A DNA stretch of 64,000 bases from an uncultured Clostridia bacterium (GTDB lineage Bacteria; Bacillota; Clostridia; Saccharofermentanales; Saccharofermentanaceae). The notes under the pieces were generated by a model. It saw nothing but the letters and a program-made list of their open reading frames with translations. It searched no databases and was not told the DNA's origin. Below are positions 35,356 through 47,790 of the stretch, one piece after another. Made by a program: the position numbers and the translations under genes. Position 1 is the stretch's first letter. Each line of letters begins with the position of its first letter. The stretch spans positions 43,585 to 107,584 of the forward strand of contig CAMYXF010000008.1 of NCBI GenBank assembly GCA_947303185.1, in the 5' to 3' direction.

Positions 35356-37971
35356 TTAAGTCGGTTCACCCGGATACAAACTCCAGTTTTCATCGTCGTA
35401 AATATTGTCGTGCACCGTGAGCCAGTAAGCATCCGGATCATAGAAACGGGCACCGTTGTTCGTGTAGATATTTACGTTCTCTGAAACATAGATATTAAGA
35501 TCGCCTGACTTGATATCCTGATAGATCGGATTTTGTGTAAACGGATTGATGGGGTTTTCGAAGATGCCGCCAAACGCAAGAGTAGGCGTATCAGCATTCG
35601 TCATGAACTCATCAGAAACTGTGAATCCCGTGCTGTTGAAATCCTTTACGAGAAGGACCGGATTTACTGCCTGGGCATCAAAACCAAGGTCATCCACAAG
35701 GAGGCTGTCGAACTGTCCCAGACCGTTTCCGTGGTCAGCAACGATGATGATCCTCGTGTTGTCGTAGATGCCGTTTTCGCGCAGATAATCGAACCACTTA
35801 CCGAGCGAGATGCAGACTTCCATGCTGCTCTCATATGCCGCATAAGTAAGATAATCGGATTCCATGTCCATGGTGACTCCGTCAACGGTAAATCTGTCCA
35901 TGTGTGCAGCATCGTATTCGGTGTTGTCGACGTTTTGAACGACGCCGTAATCAGGCTCGCTCAAGAGGCTGATGTCGTGTGTGGACTGGTTCGAGAAAAC
36001 GAAGAAACAGTTTGTCGGATCGTCCTGTACGTCTGTAACGTCAGGCAGGGCTTCAAGAACGGAATGTTCCTGTACATGCTGCTGATGGATTCCGTACTGG
36101 ACGTGCAGCGTATTTCCGAGATAAGAACTGTTATTGAAATTCAGATAGCAGTAAGAGCCTGACGTGTAGGCAGCCGGCTGGCAGATCTGCGGGAGGATCT
36201 TCATGAAGCCGTAGCAGAAAAGATTTCTGTTAAGACGTGTTTCAAGTTCATCTCCTGCATCAGCAAGGACCGGAACCTTGTCATTGAATACGCCGGACAA
36301 ATGGTATGCGTGAATGTTCTCGTATCCTTCGTAGATGCTGAGGTCTGCGATCCACTGGTAGTTGGCATAGGAAGGATCTCCGACCGTTACGTTCCAGCCG
36401 TTGGTGGAAAAAATAACAGGCATGGTCAGAAGTGCTTCGTTATGCTTGACCCTTAATGTCTCGTCAGCTCTGGCATTCATCATTTCAGGTCTGTAATCGT
36501 ATCCTCCAAACAGAGCAGACGAAGCCATGTTCGTATATTTGCCGAATGAGACCGTGTTGGGATAGTAAGTAAATCCGTCGAACTGAGCGGCAACGTCAGG
36601 ACGCTCGTTGAACAGATACGGGATATAAGATCCGTTCATCTTATCCATCATGATGACTACAACGTTCTGGCCGTTCTTAGTCAGCGGAACACTTACCTCT
36701 TCAGCAGTGTTGCTGTAGTGGTAGTTGAAGTTTGTTGAGAACACCACAGTCGCGATAAGTCTCATTGCAGAAAGGAATATTACCGCAAGAAGGACTGTCG
36801 TCATCAGCGGCCTTATGAATTTTTTGAGCTTTACCGCAACGAAAATCACGACAGCGATTATGGCAATGTCTGCAAGGAGATTTAACACCGTCTCCTTTAC
36901 TTCAAAAGCCATGTTGTAATCGTAGATGAGCTTATTTGAAAGCATTCCGAAATTCTTGTTGAAAAGAATGTAGTTGAGAACTCCCGTTGCCGCAAAAGCA
37001 GGAACGAGATACATGAATGCTTTTCTTGATTTCTCGCCCGAAAGATAAACAAACACGGGAACCCAGATCATGAAAAGTCCTGCAGCGATAAGCGTACTGT
37101 TCAGTATGTAAAGCAGAGGACTGTGGGGATTGGTGCTGAATGTGTTAGTCATCTCGGCAGGATTCTGGACAACGACGTCTGAAGGGATCATTACTCCCGT
37201 AAGAACCGTAAGAGCAGCACATGAGATCATGAATACGCTTGTGCTCTTCTTATCCAAAGCAAAACTCTCTTTTTTGAGCTTAGCTTCCGGCTTGGGTTTC
37301 CAGATAAGGGTAACGATATTCTTTCCCAAAGAGAAAACATTGTTGAGTGTCCAGTAGAAAACAAGTCCTGCAGGTGAATTATAGAGCAAAATGAGGAATA
37401 CGAGAGCGATCGCGACAAGCTTGATCTTATCCTTGATCGCGCCCTTTTCGGTGTAGATGAAACCTGCAATGATGTTGATCACCGTCATCAGGATCGGAAG
37501 AGCGTTGAAGCATCCTTCACCGAACGGAATGAGTCCGTCAGGCTGGCTTAAATCATAAATGGGTCCCAGAGATACGCCCTGAAGGAGCTTTAACTCTGAA
37601 AGGAAGCTGTAAGCAGCCATGAAGAATGGGATCTGGAGCAGGAGCGAGACGGATTCTTTAAATACACCCGTCGTCTTGTAATCGTTCTCGCGGTAATACG
37701 CCTGGAGCATCATGACACGCTCGTCGCCCTTGAATGCTGCCTTGATCTTGTCGACCCAGGGTTTCAGGCTCTTTTTCTTCTCGCGCTGCTCCTTCTCGAG
37801 CTTGTCGGCGCGCTTATAAAGAGGCAGAACCAGGATGTTGATTACAAGGCTGATAACGACAATTGAGATACCGACATTGCCGGTAAATTTATAGGCATAA
37901 AAGAACACAACTTCAAAGAGAAGTTTCAACGGTTCTATAAAAAGCGAAAACAAATAATCGAAGAAAGACAT
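35356..37971 (-). CDS. YidC/Oxa1-like domain fused to LtaS/sulfatase-like phosphotransferase domain (paralog 1)
   Basis: N-term GNVGISIVVISLVINILVLPLYKRADKLEKEQREKKKSLKPWV and LLYNSPAGLVFYWTLNNVFSLGKN; C-term NVVVIMMDK, KYTNMASSALFGGYDY, RIIIVADHGNGLG. Confidence 0.88.
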   Translation of the reverse strand: MSFFDYLFSLFIEPLKLLFEVVFFYAYKFTGNVGISIVVISLVINILVLPLYKRADKLEKEQREKKKSLKPWVDKIKAAFKGDERVMMLQAYYRENDYKTTGVFKESVSLLLQIPFFMAAYSFLSELKLLQGVSLGPIYDLSQPDGLIPFGEGCFNALPILMTVINIIAGFIYTEKGAIKDKIKLVAIALVFLILLYNSPAGLVFYWTLNNVFSLGKNIVTLIWKPKPEAKLKKESFALDKKSTSVFMISCAALTVLTGVMIPSDVVVQNPAEMTNTFSTNPHSPLLYILNSTLIAAGLFMIWVPVFVYLSGEKSRKAFMYLVPAFAATGVLNYILFNKNFGMLSNKLIYDYNMAFEVKETVLNLLADIAIIAVVIFVAVKLKKFIRPLMTTVLLAVIFLSAMRLIATVVFSTNFNYHYSNTAEEVSVPLTKNGQNVVVIMMDKMNGSYIPYLFNERPDVAAQFDGFTYYPNTVSFGKYTNMASSALFGGYDYRPEMMNARADETLRVKHNEALLTMPVIFSTNGWNVTVGDPSYANYQWIADLSIYEGYENIHAYHLSGVFNDKVPVLADAGDELETRLNRNLFCYGFMKILPQICQPAAYTSGSYCYLNFNNSSYLGNTLHVQYGIHQQHVQEHSVLEALPDVTDVQDDPTNCFFVFSNQSTHDISLLSEPDYGVVQNVDNTEYDAAHMDRFTVDGVTMDMESDYLTYAAYESSMEVCISLGKWFDYLRENGIYDNTRIIIVADHGNGLGQFDSLLVDDLGFDAQAVNPVLLVKDFNSTGFTVSDEFMTNADTPTLAFGGIFENPINPFTQNPIYQDIKSGDLNIYVSENVNIYTNNGARFYDPDAYWLTVHDNIYDDENWSLYPGEPT

Positions 37972-38091
37972 AATTATTAAATTATATGTATAAATATATC
38001 CACCCGCAAGAATACAATATACAATCTGAAACTGAAGGAATAAATTATAATTTGTTAAATCAGTTCTTTACAGTCAGATATAATAAAAATT

Positions 38092-39183
38092 ATGAATGAG
38101 CACAATATCAGTAAAAACGGCTTCCTTTTGCTCTCAAAATACAGAACGGCAATCATGGGTTTTGCTGCCCTGTGGATATTGTTTTTCCATGTTTGGCAGC
38201 CGCTGATTCCCGTGTCTTCCAACAGGTTTGTTAATTTTTTTGTTCTTTTTGAACACTTCAGCACCAACTTCGGGTACTCAGGCGTCGACATTTTCTTTTT
38301 GCTTTCAGGCGCCGGTCTTACTTATGCCATAAAAAAGGAATCCATTCCGGTTTTCTATGCAAGACGTCTGCTCAAAGTCCTGCCTCCTTTTCTGTTGCTG
38401 GCTGTATTAAGATCCGTCTTCCAGAACTGGACTATCCTTGATTTTGTATGCAATGTCAGCGGGTACAGCTTTTACGCAGTACACATCTTTACTTTTTTAT
38501 GGTTTGTTACTGCCATTATTACTCTTTACTTCTTTTTCCCGCTGTATTACCGGATATTTTCCAAAGCAAAGAACAAGCTGATCTTTACATGCTGCGTTAT
38601 TCTTGTCTGGATGCTTATAACCTTTTTGGTTCGCAATATAATGCGTTCTGATCTTTTTGCGTTCACCAACAGGATTCCCATATTTGTTGTGGGTATATAC
38701 GTCGGTTATGTTTCACAAAATTACAAAGAAATCGTCTTCAAGAAATGGGTTTACCTGCTCCTTCTTATTGTTCTTTCACTTGGACTTTATCTTGCTTATC
38801 TCTACAACTACACTTCTTTCCATATTTTTGTTACCCAGGGCAATACGTTTTTGCCGCCATTCCTTATTGCCATAAGTCTTCCGTTTCTTCTTGCTAAACT
38901 TCTGGATATTCTCGAAAACCGTATTTCGACTCTGGGAAAAATAATCAATGTGACGTTGAGCTTCTTTGGTGCAATGTCACTGGAATTATATTGCTTTCAG
39001 GATTGGTTAGATATGTATACCCCTTATCTGCAATATTACGGTGTTCCCAAAACGGTAATAAATTTCTCTTTGATCCTGATTTCCATTGCTGCAGCATGGG
39101 CATCCGCTAAGCTGATTAAATTATTTTCGCAAGAAATACCTGACAGAATCAAAAACAAAAAGATGAAAGAAAAAGCCACATAG
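38092..39183 (+). CDS. Acyltransferase 3 family membrane protein
   Basis: FAALWILFFHVW, FSTNFGYSGVDIFFLLSGAGLTYA, ~10 TM. Confidence 0.85.
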   Translation: MNEHNISKNGFLLLSKYRTAIMGFAALWILFFHVWQPLIPVSSNRFVNFFVLFEHFSTNFGYSGVDIFFLLSGAGLTYAIKKESIPVFYARRLLKVLPPFLLLAVLRSVFQNWTILDFVCNVSGYSFYAVHIFTFLWFVTAIITLYFFFPLYYRIFSKAKNKLIFTCCVILVWMLITFLVRNIMRSDLFAFTNRIPIFVVGIYVGYVSQNYKEIVFKKWVYLLLLIVLSLGLYLAYLYNYTSFHIFVTQGNTFLPPFLIAISLPFLLAKLLDILENRISTLGKIINVTLSFFGAMSLELYCFQDWLDMYTPYLQYYGVPKTVINFSLILISIAAAWASAKLIKLFSQEIPDRIKNKKMKEKAT

Positions 39184-39235
39184 TTTAGAGAAACAATATT
39201 CTTTTATAAAAATAATATTTAGATATAATATCAGC

Positions 39236-40573
39236 ATGAACGAAAAAGGAAACAGACATTTCAGGTTAACAGGCTCGCAGACTATCCTCCTGGGATTCCT
39301 CACGATGATACTCGCAGGCACACTCCTTCTCATGCTCCCCATCTCTACGAAGACCGGGGAATGGACAGGCTTTTCAAACGCATTCTTTACGGCCACGTCA
39401 GCCAGCTGCGTTACGGGACTTGTAGTCTACGATACGGCTTCACACTGGTCTATTTTCGGACAGATCGTAATTCTTACCATGATCCAGATCGGCGGTATGG
39501 GCGTCGTTACCATGACCACCCTCTTATCAAGACTCATCGGCAAAAAGCTCAGCCTTCAGGCAAGGACCACGCTTCAGGAAGCTGTCTCTGCGCCTAACCT
39601 CGGTGAGATCTTAAAATACACAAGATTCATCTGCATCGGCACGGTTATTTTCGAAGCTGCCGGCGCAGTCATCATGTCACCTGTATTCATTAACGAATAC
39701 GGTATTCTCAAGGGAATCTGGATCTCCATTTTCACATCCATATCGGCTTTCTGTAATGCCGGCTTTGACCTTAACGGTGCCCACGGTGAATTCTCATCAA
39801 TGGTACCTTACGCGGATAATCCGCTTATCGTAATCACGCTCGTCTTCCTGATCTTAACGGGCGGCTTGGGCTTCCTCACATGGCTCGACATCAGGAAGCA
39901 CGGACTTAAGTTCTCAAGATACAGCACACAGAGCAAGATCATCATCGTCATGGAGATCTTCCTGATCTGTGTACCTCTGATCTACATGTTCTTCGGCGAA
40001 TACGAAGACCTTCCCTTTGGCGAGAGATTCCTCGCTGCTCTCTTCCAGGCAGTCACCCCGAGAACGGCAGGCTTCAACACCACTGACTACAGCTATTTCT
40101 CAGGCACGGGCATACTCCTTACGGTTATCCTTATGCTCATCGGCGGCGCTCCGGGTTCCACTGCGGGCGGTATGAAGATCACGACTGTTGCAGTTCTCTT
40201 CTTCACGATGGTCTCTGTATTTAAACACGAGAAATCACCTGCCGTCTTCAAGCGCAGGATCAAGCCCGAAGCAATCTATGGTGCCGTTGCGGTATTCATG
40301 CTCGATATCATGATCGCTCTCATCGGCGCGATGCTCATCTCAAAGATCGAGCACGTAGCTTTCCTCAAGACATTATTTGAAAGTGCTTCCGCAGTAGGTA
40401 CCGTCGGTCTCTCGATGGGCCTTACGCCGACGCTTTCAACAGTATCCAAGTTCATTCTTATATTCTCTATGTACATGGGACGTGTGGGCGGCCTCACGCT
40501 TGTCTTCGCTGCAATATCCAGGAAATCGACAGGCAACAGGCAGTACCCGGCTGATAACATAGCGGTCGGTTGA
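39236..40573 (+). CDS. ktrB: TrkH/KtrB family potassium transporter subunit
   Basis: ATSASCVTGLVVYDT, FNAGFDLNG-like, APGSTAGGMKITT. Confidence 0.93.
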   Translation: MNEKGNRHFRLTGSQTILLGFLTMILAGTLLLMLPISTKTGEWTGFSNAFFTATSASCVTGLVVYDTASHWSIFGQIVILTMIQIGGMGVVTMTTLLSRLIGKKLSLQARTTLQEAVSAPNLGEILKYTRFICIGTVIFEAAGAVIMSPVFINEYGILKGIWISIFTSISAFCNAGFDLNGAHGEFSSMVPYADNPLIVITLVFLILTGGLGFLTWLDIRKHGLKFSRYSTQSKIIIVMEIFLICVPLIYMFFGEYEDLPFGERFLAALFQAVTPRTAGFNTTDYSYFSGTGILLTVILMLIGGAPGSTAGGMKITTVAVLFFTMVSVFKHEKSPAVFKRRIKPEAIYGAVAVFMLDIMIALIGAMLISKIEHVAFLKTLFESASAVGTVGLSMGLTPTLSTVSKFILIFSMYMGRVGGLTLVFAAISRKSTGNRQYPADNIAVG

Positions 40574-40593
40574 TCCGGCAGAAAGGAAACAAC

Positions 40594-41247
40594 ATGAAGA
40601 ACATACTCGTAATCGGAATCGGACGTTTCGGCTACCATCTCATTGACCAGCTCAACAAAGCCGGCGACCAGATCCTCGCCGTTGATTCATCCGAAGAGCG
40701 TCTCGAACCCGTACTCGGAATGGTCACGAGCTCCCTCATAGGTGATGCTACAAATGAGACTTTCGTAAGGTCTCTCGGCGTCGAAAACTTTGACGTCTGC
40801 TTCGTAGCCATCGGTGACGATTTCCAGGCTTCACTCGAGACAACATCAATGCTCAAGGAGTGCGGCGCAAAGTATGTCGTAGCAAGAGCTGCACGTTCCG
40901 TCCAGAAGAAATTCCTTCTTGCCAACGGCGCAGATTCAGTTGTCTTCCCCGAAAAGCAGCTCGCAGAATGGGCTGCTATCCGCTGGTGCTCCGGAAGAGT
41001 CGTTGACTATCTCGACTATCCGGGTGACTTCTCGATTTTCGAGATCAAGGTGCCTAAGGAATGGATCGGCAAGAGCCTTGCAGAACTCGGCATCAGACAG
41101 AAGCTTCACCTCAACGTTTTATCGATCAAGAGAAACGGCGAAGTCGTCCTGGAATTCCCTGCAGACTTCCTTTTCGAAGAGGGCGACACGGTAACGATCT
41201 TCGGTGCCGACAAGGACATCAAGAAGGGTATCAATCTCAATTACTGA
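40594..41247 (+). CDS. ktrA: KtrA/TrkA family potassium uptake regulator
   Basis: GIGRFGYHL RCK-N and TrkA-C; GAAAGGA upstream of ATG 40594. Confidence 0.93.
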   Translation: MKNILVIGIGRFGYHLIDQLNKAGDQILAVDSSEERLEPVLGMVTSSLIGDATNETFVRSLGVENFDVCFVAIGDDFQASLETTSMLKECGAKYVVARAARSVQKKFLLANGADSVVFPEKQLAEWAAIRWCSGRVVDYLDYPGDFSIFEIKVPKEWIGKSLAELGIRQKLHLNVLSIKRNGEVVLEFPADFLFEEGDTVTIFGADKDIKKGINLNY

Positions 41248-41249
41248 TA

Positions 41250-44039
41250 TCAGTAATCTCCCTTATATTCCCAATTGTCAGGATCATGAACATCCCCGCC
41301 TTTAAAGATGAACCATGAACCCGGAAGGAATGTGTTTCCGTTGTTGATCTTTGTATCATAAACGGGAGAATAGAATACTGTCTGTTCTCCGTTTTTAGGA
41401 TCAGTTGTGATCGGATTGCCCGTGAAAGGATTTACGGGATTATCTATAAGACCTGAAGCTGCAAGAGAAGGCGTATCGCCATTGGTCATAAATTCTTCGC
41501 TGACCGTAAATCCTGTTGCGCCAAAGTCCTTCACCATAAGAACCGGCATGAAAGATTCCATGTCTTCACCGTTGCATGTAATGCCGAACTGGCCGAGATC
41601 TTTTCCGTGGTCGGAAACGATTATGATTCGGGTATTATCATATACACCGTTCTCACGAAGATAATCAAACCATTCTCCGAGAGCTATATACGAAGCAATG
41701 TTTACATGATAATGAGTAACCTGCTTCTCAGTAGTCATCTGCATTGTAGTGCCATCAAGAGTATATCTTGATGCCATGTCAACATCATATGCTGTATTAT
41801 CCACATTTACTTCCGGAACATAATCAGGCTCCTGCAAAAGGCATTCAGAATGAGATGAGTCATTGGTCATAAGCAGGAAAGTGTTTTCCTCTCCGTCATT
41901 GATCTCAGTGATATCAGGCAAAGCCATAAGAACGGAATATGCATTTATGAAATCCATATCGTAACCCGTACTCTTTGACAGTCCGTCAATGCTCTGAACA
42001 AATGAACCTTTTTCCATTGCCGAAGACTCGTTGTAAACGCCTTCGTCATAGAGTGTTTCCTGAATAAAAACCGGTGCGATCTTCATGATGGAGAAACAGA
42101 AGAAGTTACGGTTTCTGATATCCTGAACGCGCTGTGTTTGAGAACGCGCATATTCGCCGGAAGTATCAACGTCAAAGAGATTGAATATTCCATTCGTGAC
42201 ATAACAATTGAATTCAGGGTGGTCGTCATATATGGACAGGTCTGGTATCCAGAAATAACCTGCATATGTGGGGTCTATTACAGTAACCTCATAACCGTTA
42301 TCGCCAAACAATACCGGCATTACTCTTAGTGATTCATTATGTTTGCTTTCAAGACTCTCATCTGCTCTCTCGTTTATCTTATCAGGAGTGTAGTCGTAAC
42401 CGCCAAAGAGCGCAGGAGAACCGAAATTCGTGGATATACCGTAGGAAATGGTATTCGGATAATATGTAAATCCATCAAACTTTTCTTTTAATTCAGGTTT
42501 CTCATTGAATATGTACGGCACCTGGGTTCCGAGACCACGGTCAAGCATAAGCACAACAACATTCTTACCGTTTTTACTAAGCGGGATTATCTGTTCATCC
42601 GTTGCATCATCATTTTCGAGATACGAAGCGGCCGGAATCTGATACCTGTCATATTCACGCCAGATTCCGATAACATGATACATTCCGATCGCAAAGACAG
42701 ACAGCGAAGCAACTATGAGTATGCTTTTCGTTATCTTGGAAAACCTGGAATAAACAAACGCGAAAACAACAAGCACAGCAACTATCGCCGCAGCATTTAT
42801 CAGATAATCTTTCATCTGAAATTCAGGCTTGTTATCATAAAGAAGCGTTGAAGAGAGCATGCCGAGATCTGTTCCGAAGAACATGTAATCGATTATCGAT
42901 ACACCGCAGCAGATCCATATGATCTTACTGAACAAAGACTTGACAGTACCGCTCATAAAAAAGTAGAACACGCCCAGCCACAAGACCCATGTGCCGAAAG
43001 ACAACAGCATTGAATTGACAACATAAAGAACAGGGTTTTTAGGAAGGTCGATGTCGACAAATTCCAAAGCAGAAGCATCAATTACTGTGGAAGGTATGAG
43101 CATTCCGGTAATAAGCGCCATAAAAACGCAGCCTCCGACAAAGATCGCAGCTGTTTCTTTGGAATTTGTTCTTGTCTTGATCTTCAGCTTTTCCGGAATG
43201 CGGATCTTATTCTTGAAAAGACTCCATGCCAAAGGCACGCAGAGCAACAGGCAGCAGACTGAAAGAAGTATCTTTCTCTTCATACCGAAATCAGGATTGA
43301 ACAGGGTAACGATGATCACCGTTACACCTGCAACGGCAAGAACAACTGAAAGCGCTTTCTTCGGATCCTTAAGCTTGTAGAAGATGTTTTTAACAAGAGA
43401 GAAAACATTATTGAGCAGCCAGTAGAAAACAAGTCCTGATGGTGAATGGTAAAGCAGCACAAGGAATACTGCAGCCAGTCCGTAAACCTGTATCTTTGCC
43501 TTGAGCGGATGGCCTTTGGTATAGATGATTCCGGAAATGATGTTTATCAATGTCATGAGTATCGGAAGAACGTTTACCGGAAAGTTTCCTATCATGAACA
43601 TCGCATCTTCACTGCCGAGGTCTTTTATAAATCCAAAAGTCATCCCCTGAAGGCATTCCATACCCGAAAGGAGATTATAAGCTGCAATAAAGAACGGGAT
43701 CTGCAAAAGCAGAGATACGGAACTCTTTAATGCATAGACCGGTTTATAGTGATTTATACGGTAATATTCCTGAAGCATGAAGAAGCGCTCATCACCTTTG
43801 AACGTGCGCTTGATATGCTTGATATGAGGCGCCATCTTTGCCTGGATGTCACGTTCCTCAGCCTGCAGCTCATCCGCCCGTTTATAAAGCGGCAACACAA
43901 GGAAATTAACCGCAAGACTTAAGAAGATTATAGACAGACCTTCATTGCCGATAACCCTGTTGGTAACCGTGAATACAACTTCAAATAGAAGCATCAGGGG
44001 TGAGATTATTAATGTGTAAAGTGCTGACAGTATCGACAT
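41250..44039 (-). CDS. YidC/Oxa1-like domain fused to LtaS/sulfatase-like phosphotransferase domain (paralog 2)
   Basis: N-term EGLSIIFLSLAVNFLVLPLYKRADELQAEE, LLYHSPSGLVFYWLLNNVFSLVKN; C-term NVVVLMLDR, GISTNFGSPALFGGYDY, RIIIVSDHGKDLG. Confidence 0.88.
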   Translation of the reverse strand: MSILSALYTLIISPLMLLFEVVFTVTNRVIGNEGLSIIFLSLAVNFLVLPLYKRADELQAEERDIQAKMAPHIKHIKRTFKGDERFFMLQEYYRINHYKPVYALKSSVSLLLQIPFFIAAYNLLSGMECLQGMTFGFIKDLGSEDAMFMIGNFPVNVLPILMTLINIISGIIYTKGHPLKAKIQVYGLAAVFLVLLYHSPSGLVFYWLLNNVFSLVKNIFYKLKDPKKALSVVLAVAGVTVIIVTLFNPDFGMKRKILLSVCCLLLCVPLAWSLFKNKIRIPEKLKIKTRTNSKETAAIFVGGCVFMALITGMLIPSTVIDASALEFVDIDLPKNPVLYVVNSMLLSFGTWVLWLGVFYFFMSGTVKSLFSKIIWICCGVSIIDYMFFGTDLGMLSSTLLYDNKPEFQMKDYLINAAAIVAVLVVFAFVYSRFSKITKSILIVASLSVFAIGMYHVIGIWREYDRYQIPAASYLENDDATDEQIIPLSKNGKNVVVLMLDRGLGTQVPYIFNEKPELKEKFDGFTYYPNTISYGISTNFGSPALFGGYDYTPDKINERADESLESKHNESLRVMPVLFGDNGYEVTVIDPTYAGYFWIPDLSIYDDHPEFNCYVTNGIFNLFDVDTSGEYARSQTQRVQDIRNRNFFCFSIMKIAPVFIQETLYDEGVYNESSAMEKGSFVQSIDGLSKSTGYDMDFINAYSVLMALPDITEINDGEENTFLLMTNDSSHSECLLQEPDYVPEVNVDNTAYDVDMASRYTLDGTTMQMTTEKQVTHYHVNIASYIALGEWFDYLRENGVYDNTRIIIVSDHGKDLGQFGITCNGEDMESFMPVLMVKDFGATGFTVSEEFMTNGDTPSLAASGLIDNPVNPFTGNPITTDPKNGEQTVFYSPVYDTKINNGNTFLPGSWFIFKGGDVHDPDNWEYKGDY

Positions 44040-44043
44040 CTGA

Positions 44044-45354
44044 TCAAAATCCCTTTAAGGAAAGTTTCTTAGCTTTGTGCTTTGAGCTTCCTTTTTCCTC
44101 TGACTCTGTTTTTGAATATGAAGTGACCACTTCTTTATATTTTTTCATAATGAAATCAACAGACCTCTCCGCACCTTCGCCGATATGCACCCAAGTCTCG
44201 GATCGGGCTTTTGTGCGGCCCTCGGCAAAAGACGGATCATCAATACATCTGTCGATAAGATCCTTGATGTCTCCCATGTTCTTATCATTAAGTTCAAGAC
44301 CGATAGACGGAAGGATCTTATACATCCACAACTCGTCTTCCAGCCAATAAGCATCATAGACACTGACATCAAAGAATGATCTGGTATAGATTACGGGTTT
44401 ATCAAACACCAGTGAAAAATCAAACATGACACCCGAGAAATCCGATATGAGAATATCCGATTGTCTTAACACGTTAAAGTTATCGGTATCTCTGTTCCAA
44501 ACAACTTTAGATGCATCATTATACTTATTCATCAGCCTGTCCATTAGTTCTTTTTCTGAAACAAATGACTGGGGATGTGGTCTTACGATGATCTTGTAAC
44601 CGGTTTTGATAAGCGCATCGATAAAAGGCTCTCCGTATTTCGAGAGAATGCTGCTCTCACCCCATGAAGGTGCCAAAAGAACAGTGCGGTCATGCGGCGG
44701 GAGATCTCCTGAAGTCTCCAGGCGCTTTTTCATCTGATCCATAAACGGAATACCGCAAAGATCAACATCTTTGGGTGGATATCCACGCAGCTGCTCAAGC
44801 TTTCTTACTTCATCTTCCTGATATCCGCCTGAAAGAATGATCGCGTCGTAGTGATCGATCCCGAACATTCTGTATAAAGTAATATCATTGGGCGCATGCG
44901 GAATATGAATGTAGCAGTCAACATCCTTGGATCTTTTCCATTGGAAAACATCAAGACTCGGCGTTGATGAAACTACAACAGATGCATTCAAAAGATTAAG
45001 TTTGGAGAAGCCCTTATTGCCTTCTCCTATAAACTCACCCTTGATATATTCATATTTTTTGCTGAAGACCGGATCATCTTCTGACCCGGTAAGGTAAATA
45101 ACATTTTGATGCCGCTTCTCGAACTCATCAAGAAGCGGCTCAAAAACATTCCAATATCTTTTATGATCGGTATATATCGCGACAGGTATCTTCTGATCAT
45201 TTATCTTTGAAGCCTTGCCTCCGCTTAAGCGGAACTTTACCTTCATTACGACCGCCCGAAAAGCGAATATCACTACTCCGAACAATCCGAACAGAATGGT
45301 AAACAGCATTCCTCCCGTACCGGGATCGATATAAAGACTTTTAAGAAACCCCAT
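44044..45354 (-). CDS. CDP-glycerol glycerophosphotransferase family protein
   Basis: YIDPGTGGMLFTILFG N-terminal TM; HIPHAPNDITLYRMFGIDHYDAI; ILISDFSGVMFDFSLVFDKPVIY. Confidence 0.85.
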   Translation of the reverse strand: MGFLKSLYIDPGTGGMLFTILFGLFGVVIFAFRAVVMKVKFRLSGGKASKINDQKIPVAIYTDHKRYWNVFEPLLDEFEKRHQNVIYLTGSEDDPVFSKKYEYIKGEFIGEGNKGFSKLNLLNASVVVSSTPSLDVFQWKRSKDVDCYIHIPHAPNDITLYRMFGIDHYDAIILSGGYQEDEVRKLEQLRGYPPKDVDLCGIPFMDQMKKRLETSGDLPPHDRTVLLAPSWGESSILSKYGEPFIDALIKTGYKIIVRPHPQSFVSEKELMDRLMNKYNDASKVVWNRDTDNFNVLRQSDILISDFSGVMFDFSLVFDKPVIYTRSFFDVSVYDAYWLEDELWMYKILPSIGLELNDKNMGDIKDLIDRCIDDPSFAEGRTKARSETWVHIGEGAERSVDFIMKKYKEVVTSYSKTESEEKGSSKHKAKKLSLKGF

Positions 45355-45384: not shown

Positions 45385-46581
45385 TTATCTTACGAGACGC
45401 TCTGTTTCCTGAGCGATTGCAAGCTCTTCGTTTGTAGGGATAACACAAACTGTTACCTTTGAAGAAGGCTTGGAGATGATTGCTTCCTTGCCGCGGAGAC
45501 CGTTGTTTGCTGCATCGTCGAACTCAACGCCCATGAACTCGAGGCCTTCACACATAGCCTTTCTCATCATGTCTGTGTTCTCACCGATACCGGCTGTGAA
45601 TACGATAACGTCTACGCCTTCCATAGCAGCTGCATAAGATCCGATGATCTTCTTGCCCTGATATGCGAACATGTCGAGTGCGAGCTGAGCTCTCTCATTG
45701 CCTTCCTTAGCAGCCTTCTCAAGATCTCTGAAGTCTGAAGAAACGCCGGAAACGCCCTGAACGCCTGACTTCTTGTTGAGGAGTGTATCCATCTCGTCAG
45801 GTGTGAGGTTCTCGTTCTTCATGAGGAAAGGAACGATAGCGGGATCGATGTCACCTGTTCTTGTACCCATGCAGATACCTGCAAGAGGTGTAAGACCCAT
45901 TGATGTATCCTGGCACTTGCCGTCCTTAACAGCTGCGAAAGAAGAACCGTTGCCGAGGTGGCATGTGATGATGCGGAGATCCTCATACTTCTTGCCGAGG
46001 AAATCAGCAACTCTGTGGCTTACATAACGGTGAGATGTACCATGGAAACCGTAACGGCGGATGTCGTACTTCTCGGAGATCTCATAAGGAAGAGCATATG
46101 TGTAAGCCTTTGCGGGCATTGTCTGATGGAATGCTGTATCGAATACTGCAACCTGGGGTGTGCCTGCAGGAAGAACATCTTCGCATGCCTCAATACCGAT
46201 GAGGTTTGCAGGATTGTGCAAAGGTCCCAACGGGAAGCAGTCTCTGATAACCTTCTTAACGTCGTCATTAACGATAACTGACTCGCTGTAGTACTTACCG
46301 CCGTGGAGGACTCTGTGACCTACTGCTGCGATCTCTGATACGTCAGCGATAACGCCGTGATCCTTGTCAACGAGAGCGTCGAGGATCATTCTTACAGCAA
46401 CCTTGTGGTCAGGCATGGGTTCTGTTGAAACGAACTCATCCTTGCCTGTGGGCTTGTATGTGAGCTTGCCGTCGATTCCGATTCTCTCGGCATTACCCTT
46501 AGCGAGGACATCACCTGTATCGATGTCGAAAAGCTGGAACTTCGCGGAAGAGCTTCCGCAGTTGATTACTAAAATCTTCAT
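45385..46581 (-). CDS. ackA: Acetate kinase
   Basis: [39 protein letters not shown]. Confidence 0.97.
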
Positions 46582-46619
46582 TAGACTTTTCTCCTGTCTT
46601 TAATGTTGTCTTATGTCAA

Positions 46620-47708
46620 TCAGCCCTGTGCCTGAGCCTGAACTGCTGTGATAGCAACTGTTCCGACGATATCGTCAGCGTTGCATCCTCTGGAGAGATC
46701 GTTTACAGGGAGTGCGAGACCCTGGAGAACCGGTCCGTAAGCAGGTGCCTTAGCAAGTCTCTGAACGAGCTTGTAACCGATGTTGCCTGCTTCGAGTGAA
46801 GGGAATACCAATGTGTTAGCGTGGCCTGCAACCGGTGATCCGGGTGCCTTGAGCTGACCAACTTCTTCAACGAGAGCTGCGTCGAGCTGGAGCTCACCAT
46901 CAACTACGAGATCAGGATACTTTTCCTTAGCGATCTTAACAGCGTTGGAAACCTTATCAACGTCAGCGTGCTTTGCTGAACCGTAGGAAGAATATGAGAG
47001 CATTGCAACCTTGGCAGGTGCACCGATGAACTGCTCGAAAGACTCAGCGGAGAGCTTTGCGATCTCAGCGAGCTTAGCAGAATCTACGTCTGTGTTAACT
47101 GCGCAGTCAGCGAAAATGAAGAGTCCGTGCTCACCAAGGTCGCAGTTGGGAACGTCCATAAGGAAGAAGCCGGATACTGAAGAAATGCCGGGCTTTGTCT
47201 TAAGGAGCTGGAGTGCAGGAAGGATTGTGTTACCTGTTGAGTGGCAAGCACCGGAAACAGCACCGTCAGCATCGCCGCACTTGCACATGAGGCATGCATA
47301 GTACATGTAGTCGGAGTTCATCTTCTCCTCAGCCTTCTCAGGTGTGATGCCCTTCTTCTGAGCGTCAGCGATAAGAGCGTTTGTCTCTTCCTCTGAAAGG
47401 CCCTTCTTCTCTGCCTTCTTCTTAGCTGCAGCTACCATGGTGTCTACACCGCGGAGCTCAACGAACTTGTCGATATATTTCTGCTTGTTGGGATCGTTAT
47501 AAGGGTCAACGAGTGTTGCGCCTGTAATGTCGAAACCTTCGGAATTCTTAGCAATCTCATCAGGTGTACCGATGATAATGAGGTTTGCCATGTCTGCCTT
47601 AAGGATCTTCTCGGCAGCTTCAAATGTTCTCTTGTCCATGGACTCAGGAAGAACGATGGTCTTCTTGTCAGCTTTTGCTCTGGCCATGATGTCATCAATA
47701 AATGCCAT
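46620..47708 (-). CDS. pta: Phosphate acetyltransferase
   Basis: IVLPESMDKRTFEAA; GACHSTGNTILPALQ; AGGAG upstream of ATG 47708. Confidence 0.95.
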   Translation of the reverse strand: MAFIDDIMARAKADKKTIVLPESMDKRTFEAAEKILKADMANLIIIGTPDEIAKNSEGFDITGATLVDPYNDPNKQKYIDKFVELRGVDTMVAAAKKKAEKKGLSEEETNALIADAQKKGITPEKAEEKMNSDYMYYACLMCKCGDADGAVSGACHSTGNTILPALQLLKTKPGISSVSGFFLMDVPNCDLGEHGLFIFADCAVNTDVDSAKLAEIAKLSAESFEQFIGAPAKVAMLSYSSYGSAKHADVDKVSNAVKIAKEKYPDLVVDGELQLDAALVEEVGQLKAPGSPVAGHANTLVFPSLEAGNIGYKLVQRLAKAPAYGPVLQGLALPVNDLSRGCNADDIVGTVAITAVQAQAQG

Positions 47709-47790
47709 ATATATTAATCTCCTTTTGGAATTTTTAGTCGTCAAAAGTATACTCGTAAACCTATATTATTTCAAATAAGAAATATGGTAA

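Follow-up and report, generated by a model that had tools for sequence, protein, structure and literature searches.

What is a protein for that joins, in one chain, the fold of a membrane insertase to an LtaS-like enzyme, and why should it stand beside a gene resembling a CDP-glycerol transferase? The stretch of Clostridia DNA analyzed here (64,000 nucleotides; hereafter the window) raises this question twice, because it encodes two such fusions. Our analysis suggests that the YidC core, the LtaS-like part and the TagF-like part are probably components of an unrecognized machine that puts phosphate or phosphonate groups on the cell surface. The features on which the argument turns are as follows.

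35356..37971, minus strand: fusion 1 (P0001, 871 aa), YidC core plus five-TM LtaS-like enzyme (ORF, Pfam, AlphaFold, Foldseek).
37312..37872, minus strand: YidC/Oxa1 domain of fusion 1 (aa 34-220; PF02096, E 5.7e-23; aligned with 3WO6 and E. coli YidC).
Codon 37839-37837, minus strand: groove position Asn45 of fusion 1 (alignment to 3WO6 and E. coli YidC).
36736..37251, minus strand: second membrane module of fusion 1, TM6-TM10 (aa 241-412; AlphaFold helices, hydropathy, positive-inside charges).
35359..36690, minus strand: extracytoplasmic alkaline-phosphatase (AP)-superfamily domain of fusion 1 (aa 428-871; Pfam, family alignment, AlphaFold, Foldseek).
41250..44039, minus strand: fusion 2 (P0002, 929 aa), architecture as fusion 1 with two more TM helices.
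43377..43940, minus strand: YidC domain of fusion 2 (aa 34-221; PF02096, E 1.7e-22).
41589..42518, minus strand: sulfatase/LtaS-type core of fusion 2 (aa 508-817; PF00884, E 9.6e-7, above cut-off).
44044..45354, minus strand: TagF-like transferase (P0003, 436 aa) with an N-terminal YIDPGTG membrane anchor (PF04464, E 9e-13; AlphaFold model).
38092..39183, plus strand: acyltransferase-3 (P0004; PF01757, E 4.8e-22), a neighbor only.

The ORF coordinates agree exactly with the positions given for both fusions and the glycerophosphotransferase-like gene in a preliminary description of this DNA. The P0003 gene lies 4 nt upstream of fusion 2 on the same strand; a promoter and terminator scan gave hits no more numerous than in shuffles, and the transcription units are thus supported by gene spacing alone. 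Acetate kinase-like (398 aa) and phosphotransacetylase-like (374 aa) genes (45385-47744) precede P0003 in the same orientation, separated from it by 30 nt, and both recur beside a few other fusion loci.

The proposed architecture of the two long ORFs, YidC followed by a sulfatase/LtaS-type domain, is borne out by Pfam, AlphaFold and Foldseek. PF02096 (YidC) matches fusion 1 (E 6e-23) and fusion 2 (E 2e-22) above its cut-off at aa 34-221, with an NCBIfam search likewise giving YidC, and PF00884 (Sulfatase) matches in the same chains, above cut-off in fusion 2 (28.8 versus 25 bits) and slightly under it in fusion 1 (23.6 versus 25 bits), for which AlphaFold and Foldseek are concordant. Sequence searches of the PDB lead from the N terminus to YidC structures and from the C terminus to AP-superfamily enzymes. 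The AlphaFold2 model of fusion 1, built on 63 family members, is confident (pLDDT 89.7, pTM 0.84) and consists of a YidC core (residues 33-223) that keeps the five-TM arrangement and cytoplasmic hairpin, followed by a brief linker of low confidence, a set of five long helices (241-412) and, lastly, an alpha/beta domain (428-871); the Oxa1-like reading of the N terminus therefore stands. By charges and hydropathy (positive-inside), the linker and hairpin lie inside and the last domain outside. In a crude scan, other members show between four and seven additional hydrophobic segments after the YidC core, mostly five or seven. Searched with Foldseek, the C-terminal part hits phosphonate monoester hydrolases, LtaS/LtaP, YejM/PbgA and MCR-1, with low global TM scores (0.2-0.3 on the query), as expected where one domain is matched within a long multi-domain chain. 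On the model, residues 241-871 of fusion 1 resemble an entire LtaS-type enzyme, preceded by an added YidC core.

Fusion 1 has the LtaS-family layout of five TM helices (TM6-TM10) followed by an extracytoplasmic AP-superfamily domain, and the fusions share with LtaS/LtaP and GacH/SccH a TM anchor, a Thr nucleophile and a DH metal pair; they differ from these enzymes in the full YidC core in front and in an Asp at the position of the first Glu ligand, and their identity to the LtaS/LtaP type is about 11-15% over the fold match. D443, T480, H665, D746 and H747 (fusion-1 numbering) are invariant in 109 full-length family members. The catalytic set, earlier likened to the E/T/D/H set of LtaS, is complete, with Asp443 rather than the Glu of LtaS as its first metal ligand. 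The nucleophile region reads T-N-x-x-x-P/S-A-L-F-G-G-Y, with T480 invariant, and the FGly-type sulfatase motif C/S-x-P-x-R is absent there. That the outer domain is instead a hydrolase, trimming or recycling phosphoester or phosphonate groups of envelope polymers, would accord with its best single Foldseek match, the phosphonate monoester hydrolase 2w8s, and with the sulfatases that come next; we regard this as very unlikely, given that the conserved nucleophile is Thr as in transferases and not a Cys/Ser sulfatase motif, that the five-TM membrane anchor is of the type of LtaS, MCR-1 and YejM-type proteins, and that the domain is paired with a biosynthetic transferase.

With respect to the N-terminal module, the likeness to YidC/Oxa1 extends to the five-TM core, the cytoplasmic hairpin and a PF02096 match above cut-off, whereas the modules are unlike YidC/Oxa1 in being fused to an enzyme, in occurring in many copies, in lying outside the rnpA-yidC-jag-mnmE locus and in carrying Asn for the groove Arg/Lys. 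Where 3WO6 and E. coli YidC have the groove Arg, 107 of 109 fusions carry Asn and so lack the basic residue of YidC/Oxa1 insertases; a basic residue is itself usual rather than strict, since 28 housekeeping YidC genes have Lys (18), Arg (8) or Asn (2) there. The Asn is a strong family difference that falls short of proving lost function, and the two housekeeping proteins with Asn led us to reject the Arg-to-Asn change as proof that insertase activity has been lost. These two proteins, together with the retained fold and hairpin, also speak for the view that the module is a functional insertase or chaperone devoted to helping to assemble the TagF-like protein, a polymer exporter or the enzyme itself. 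Such a role is nevertheless unlikely in our judgment, as the genome has a separate housekeeping yidC, and one module per enzyme copy, with up to four or more copies in tandem, is hard to explain on this basis.

The two fusions of the window, described earlier as twins, are indeed both present, but the genome of this gut bacterium (a 2.86 Mb draft) contains six rather than two: its seven YidC domains belong to six fusions of ~870-930 aa and one housekeeping yidC, which lies on contig C42 between rnpA-like and jag/mnmE-like genes. A scan of a genome collection found 74 fusion loci, mostly in rumen and gut Clostridia, many of them labeled Saccharofermentans, and fusions occur in 9 of 288 genomes of the class. 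Double-domain ORFs of such length, in six paralogues and >100 relatives, cannot be due to chance. Some fusions form tandem arrays of up to four or more copies, and where one genome has several paralogues, these probably serve different acceptors or donors. At L045 and L051, four fusions follow one another with overlaps of ~7 nt and no TagF-like gene within the stretch seen. At L037:12993-14745 and L039:3237-6001, which are on the same contig, one fusion is broken up into an ORF with YidC alone and, in a different frame, an ORF for the sulfatase, by a frameshift or a true split. Within the open-licence literature, where absence is weak evidence, we found no paper describing a YidC-sulfatase/LtaS or YidC-TagF fusion or assigning a function to the family, nothing relevant that combines YidC with a sulfatase, LtaS or a CDP-glycerol transferase, and none that combines phosphonate with a glycerophosphotransferase.

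The TagF-like gene is the only conserved neighbor of the fusions (53 of 79 loci, against no more than 15 for the next family). A P0003-type gene immediately flanks 70 of 118 fusions (relatives' loci plus the window, a few contigs being counted twice) in the same orientation, mostly at -4 to +20 nt, and all P0003 relatives at fusion loci score E 3e-48 or better. Within the 288 genomes, the full-length family is confined to 8 of the 9 with fusions; elsewhere among these there are only distant homologues, in three genomes and inside the reverse fusions described below. The functional link between fusion and TagF-like gene proposed earlier is supported. P0003 resembles TagF/TarF/Cps3D in its PF04464 C-terminal part (48.3 bits versus a gathering score of 22.1) and in a predicted fold nearest TagF (AlphaFold model, pLDDT 82; best match 3l7k); its profile matches the TagF-like polymerase Cps3D and, weakly, TarL. 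It differs in forming its own subfamily with the YIDPGTG anchor and scores far under the cut-off of the NCBIfam TarF model (21.7 versus 550 bits). One TagF-like match (G641:C8:12278-13510, L126) contains one in-frame TGA. The acyltransferase P0004, to which a part in the system had been given, was rejected as a component, as outside the window an acyltransferase was found near one other fusion locus only (L038).

A further link between the three parts comes from shuffled fusions ('Rosetta stone' evidence). The three distant TagF-like homologues (L149, L150, L151) are reverse fusions, with YidC joined to a TagF-like domain and both parts above Pfam cut-offs. In two of these three genomes a separate membrane sulfatase-type (LtaS-like) gene adjoins, aligning with the C-terminal part of the fusions over the TM segment and active site (E 4e-26 and 1e-24, from a four-sequence search). 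A genome of another class has a YidC-less row with PepM, Ppd, PntC, AEPT, a TagF-like gene and two membrane sulfatase-type proteins. There are thus three arrangements: YidC-LtaS-like with TagF-like, YidC-TagF-like with LtaS-like, and neither fused. That YidC is fused to the outside enzyme here and to the inside enzyme in relatives argues that the three parts are probably one machine, in which, on these gene arrangements, the YidC module is optional and shuffled and the two enzymes are the core. In a tree that included housekeeping YidC proteins, themselves chosen for their similarity to the fusions, the modules of the fusions group in a single clade (100/100), and those of the reverse fusions make up a second one that falls among the housekeeping sequences; such a tree would agree with a YidC module having been captured on two separate occasions, each perhaps for its own reason. 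The positioning of a protein acceptor, proposed earlier for the module, finds no support here; with its groove Asn and its optional, shuffled use, the module could equally well, or better, be a part for transport or a scaffold. The sulfatase partner of one reverse fusion (L149:8784-11051) has at its N terminus a YIDP-type helix resembling the one in P0003, which suggests that membrane modules have been swapped between the two genes.

Which group the system handles is suggested by further neighbors. Phosphonate or CTP-activation genes lie within ~6 kb of the fusions at 15 of 78 loci, several of them close relatives, with PepM, Ppd or AEPT at 7 of the 15. In G246, genes for the fusion, TagF-like, PntC-like, AEPT, PEP mutase, phosphonopyruvate decarboxylase, flippase and LicD-like proteins follow one another on one strand; in G519, a row of fusion, PntC-PepM, Fe-ADH, Ppd and TagF-like genes, in largely overlapping order, suggests hydroxyethylphosphonate. 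A reverse fusion in G615 is accompanied by Ppd, PntC, PepM, Fe-ADH, ABC-export and glycosyltransferase-like genes, and other loci encode nucleotidyltransferase-choline kinase or nucleotidyltransferase-aminotransferase proteins. The genome under study itself has PntC-like, AEPT, PepM and Ppd genes with LicD and glycan genes on contig C5, which is not the contig of the window, ~35 kb from the fusion that C5 itself carries. PepM occurs in seven of the nine fusion genomes versus about 15-20 of the 279 others, a co-occurrence kept as support only, because seven of the nine are of one genus. In a subset of loci, CTP-activation genes of the kinds known from the Pnt/Lic pathways (PntC, LicC, LicD) thus adjoin the fusion system; no YidC or sulfatase part is named for those pathways in PMC6697681. 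The adjacency, the co-occurrence in 8 of 9 genomes, the reverse fusions, the YidC-less row and the rows of G246 and G519 together make it very likely that the YidC core, LtaS-like and TagF-like parts share one pathway. The envelope-polymer or decoration role earlier proposed is supported, with the phosphonate link as an addition: the substituent may, on this genomic evidence, be a phosphonate or aminoalkyl phosphate, instead of or besides phosphoglycerol.

A pure glycerol-phosphate system would account for part of these data. The outer domain would then act like LtaS, GacH and SccH, taking glycerol phosphate from phosphatidylglycerol and adding it to a polymer, the TagF-like enzyme would use CDP-glycerol inside, and the phosphonate genes would be mere neighbors in surface-glycan islands. 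Consistent with this are the LtaS/LtaP fold matches of the AP domain, the TagF-like model, which is nearest TagF with CDP-glycerol, the transfer by SccH of glycerol phosphate from phosphatidylglycerol onto wall polysaccharide (PMC11754754), and a TagD-like cytidylyltransferase beside the fusion/TagF-like pair in L065. That single TagD-like gene has to be set against phosphonate or choline/aminotransferase-type activation genes at 15 of 78 loci; moreover, activation genes share a gene row with the fusion in G246 and G519 and also go with the YidC-less version and with one of the reverse fusions. We therefore consider glycerol phosphate as the sole substrate rather unlikely.

The mechanism we prefer is a trans-membrane system that transfers phospho or phosphono groups to the cell envelope; for its donor, acceptor and direction, and for the role of the YidC groove, we infer the following. 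In the cytosol, the membrane-anchored TagF-like enzyme (of predicted GT-B fold) would transfer a CTP-activated group to a lipid or lipid-linked glycan, its donor being, depending on the locus, CMP-aminoethyl- or hydroxyethylphosphonate, CDP-choline/ethanolamine or CDP-glycerol. In the membrane, the YidC-derived core, distinct from the housekeeping insertase, would offer a hydrophilic groove to the polar part of the lipid substrate, with passage by scrambling or in a guided manner. Outside, the LtaS-like module, whose active site is in place, would take the group onto Thr480 with metal help from D443/D746/H747 and pass it to a glycan of the envelope or to a polymer being extended. Beyond the evidence for a shared pathway, this transfer scheme draws on the complete active site, the topology, the PepM, Ppd, AEPT and PntC genes of the same genome and the lipid scrambling found for YidC, in vitro as well as in simulation, through a groove of this type (PMC10491306). 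Against it weigh that no activation gene lies beside the fusion 2/P0003 pair in the window, that PepM is absent from two of the fusion genomes (G540 and G641), that at least 35 of the 118 fusions are without an adjacent TagF-like gene and that the YidC modules of fusions and reverse fusions, being in separate clades, may each have been captured for a different reason; loss of insertase activity, moreover, cannot be demonstrated from an Asn that 2 of 28 housekeeping YidC proteins share. We thus hold the full mechanism to be a serious possibility, a little short of probable.

If correct, it means that an insertase fold has been reused inside an envelope enzyme, which bears on recent work claiming that lipids are moved by insertases (PMC10491306). 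CMP-AEP is the product of PntC, and what follows on the way to the cell surface has been described as unknown (PMC6697681); for the transfer steps after CMP-aminoethylphosphonate, the present set provides candidate enzymes with a testable order of action. More generally, though we view this as tentative and on balance doubtful, YidC-type grooves might have been recruited more than once as passages for lipids or lipid-linked substrates, linking a CTP-dependent transferase on the cytosolic side with an LtaS-type one on the extracytoplasmic side, and so be the missing machinery for surface phosphonates (AEP/HEP) and aminoalkyl phosphates. At four loci (L042, L055, L080 and L153), a nucleotidyltransferase fused to a class I/II aminotransferase lies beside the fusion/TagF-like pair; this protein possibly both makes and activates an aminoalkyl phosphate.
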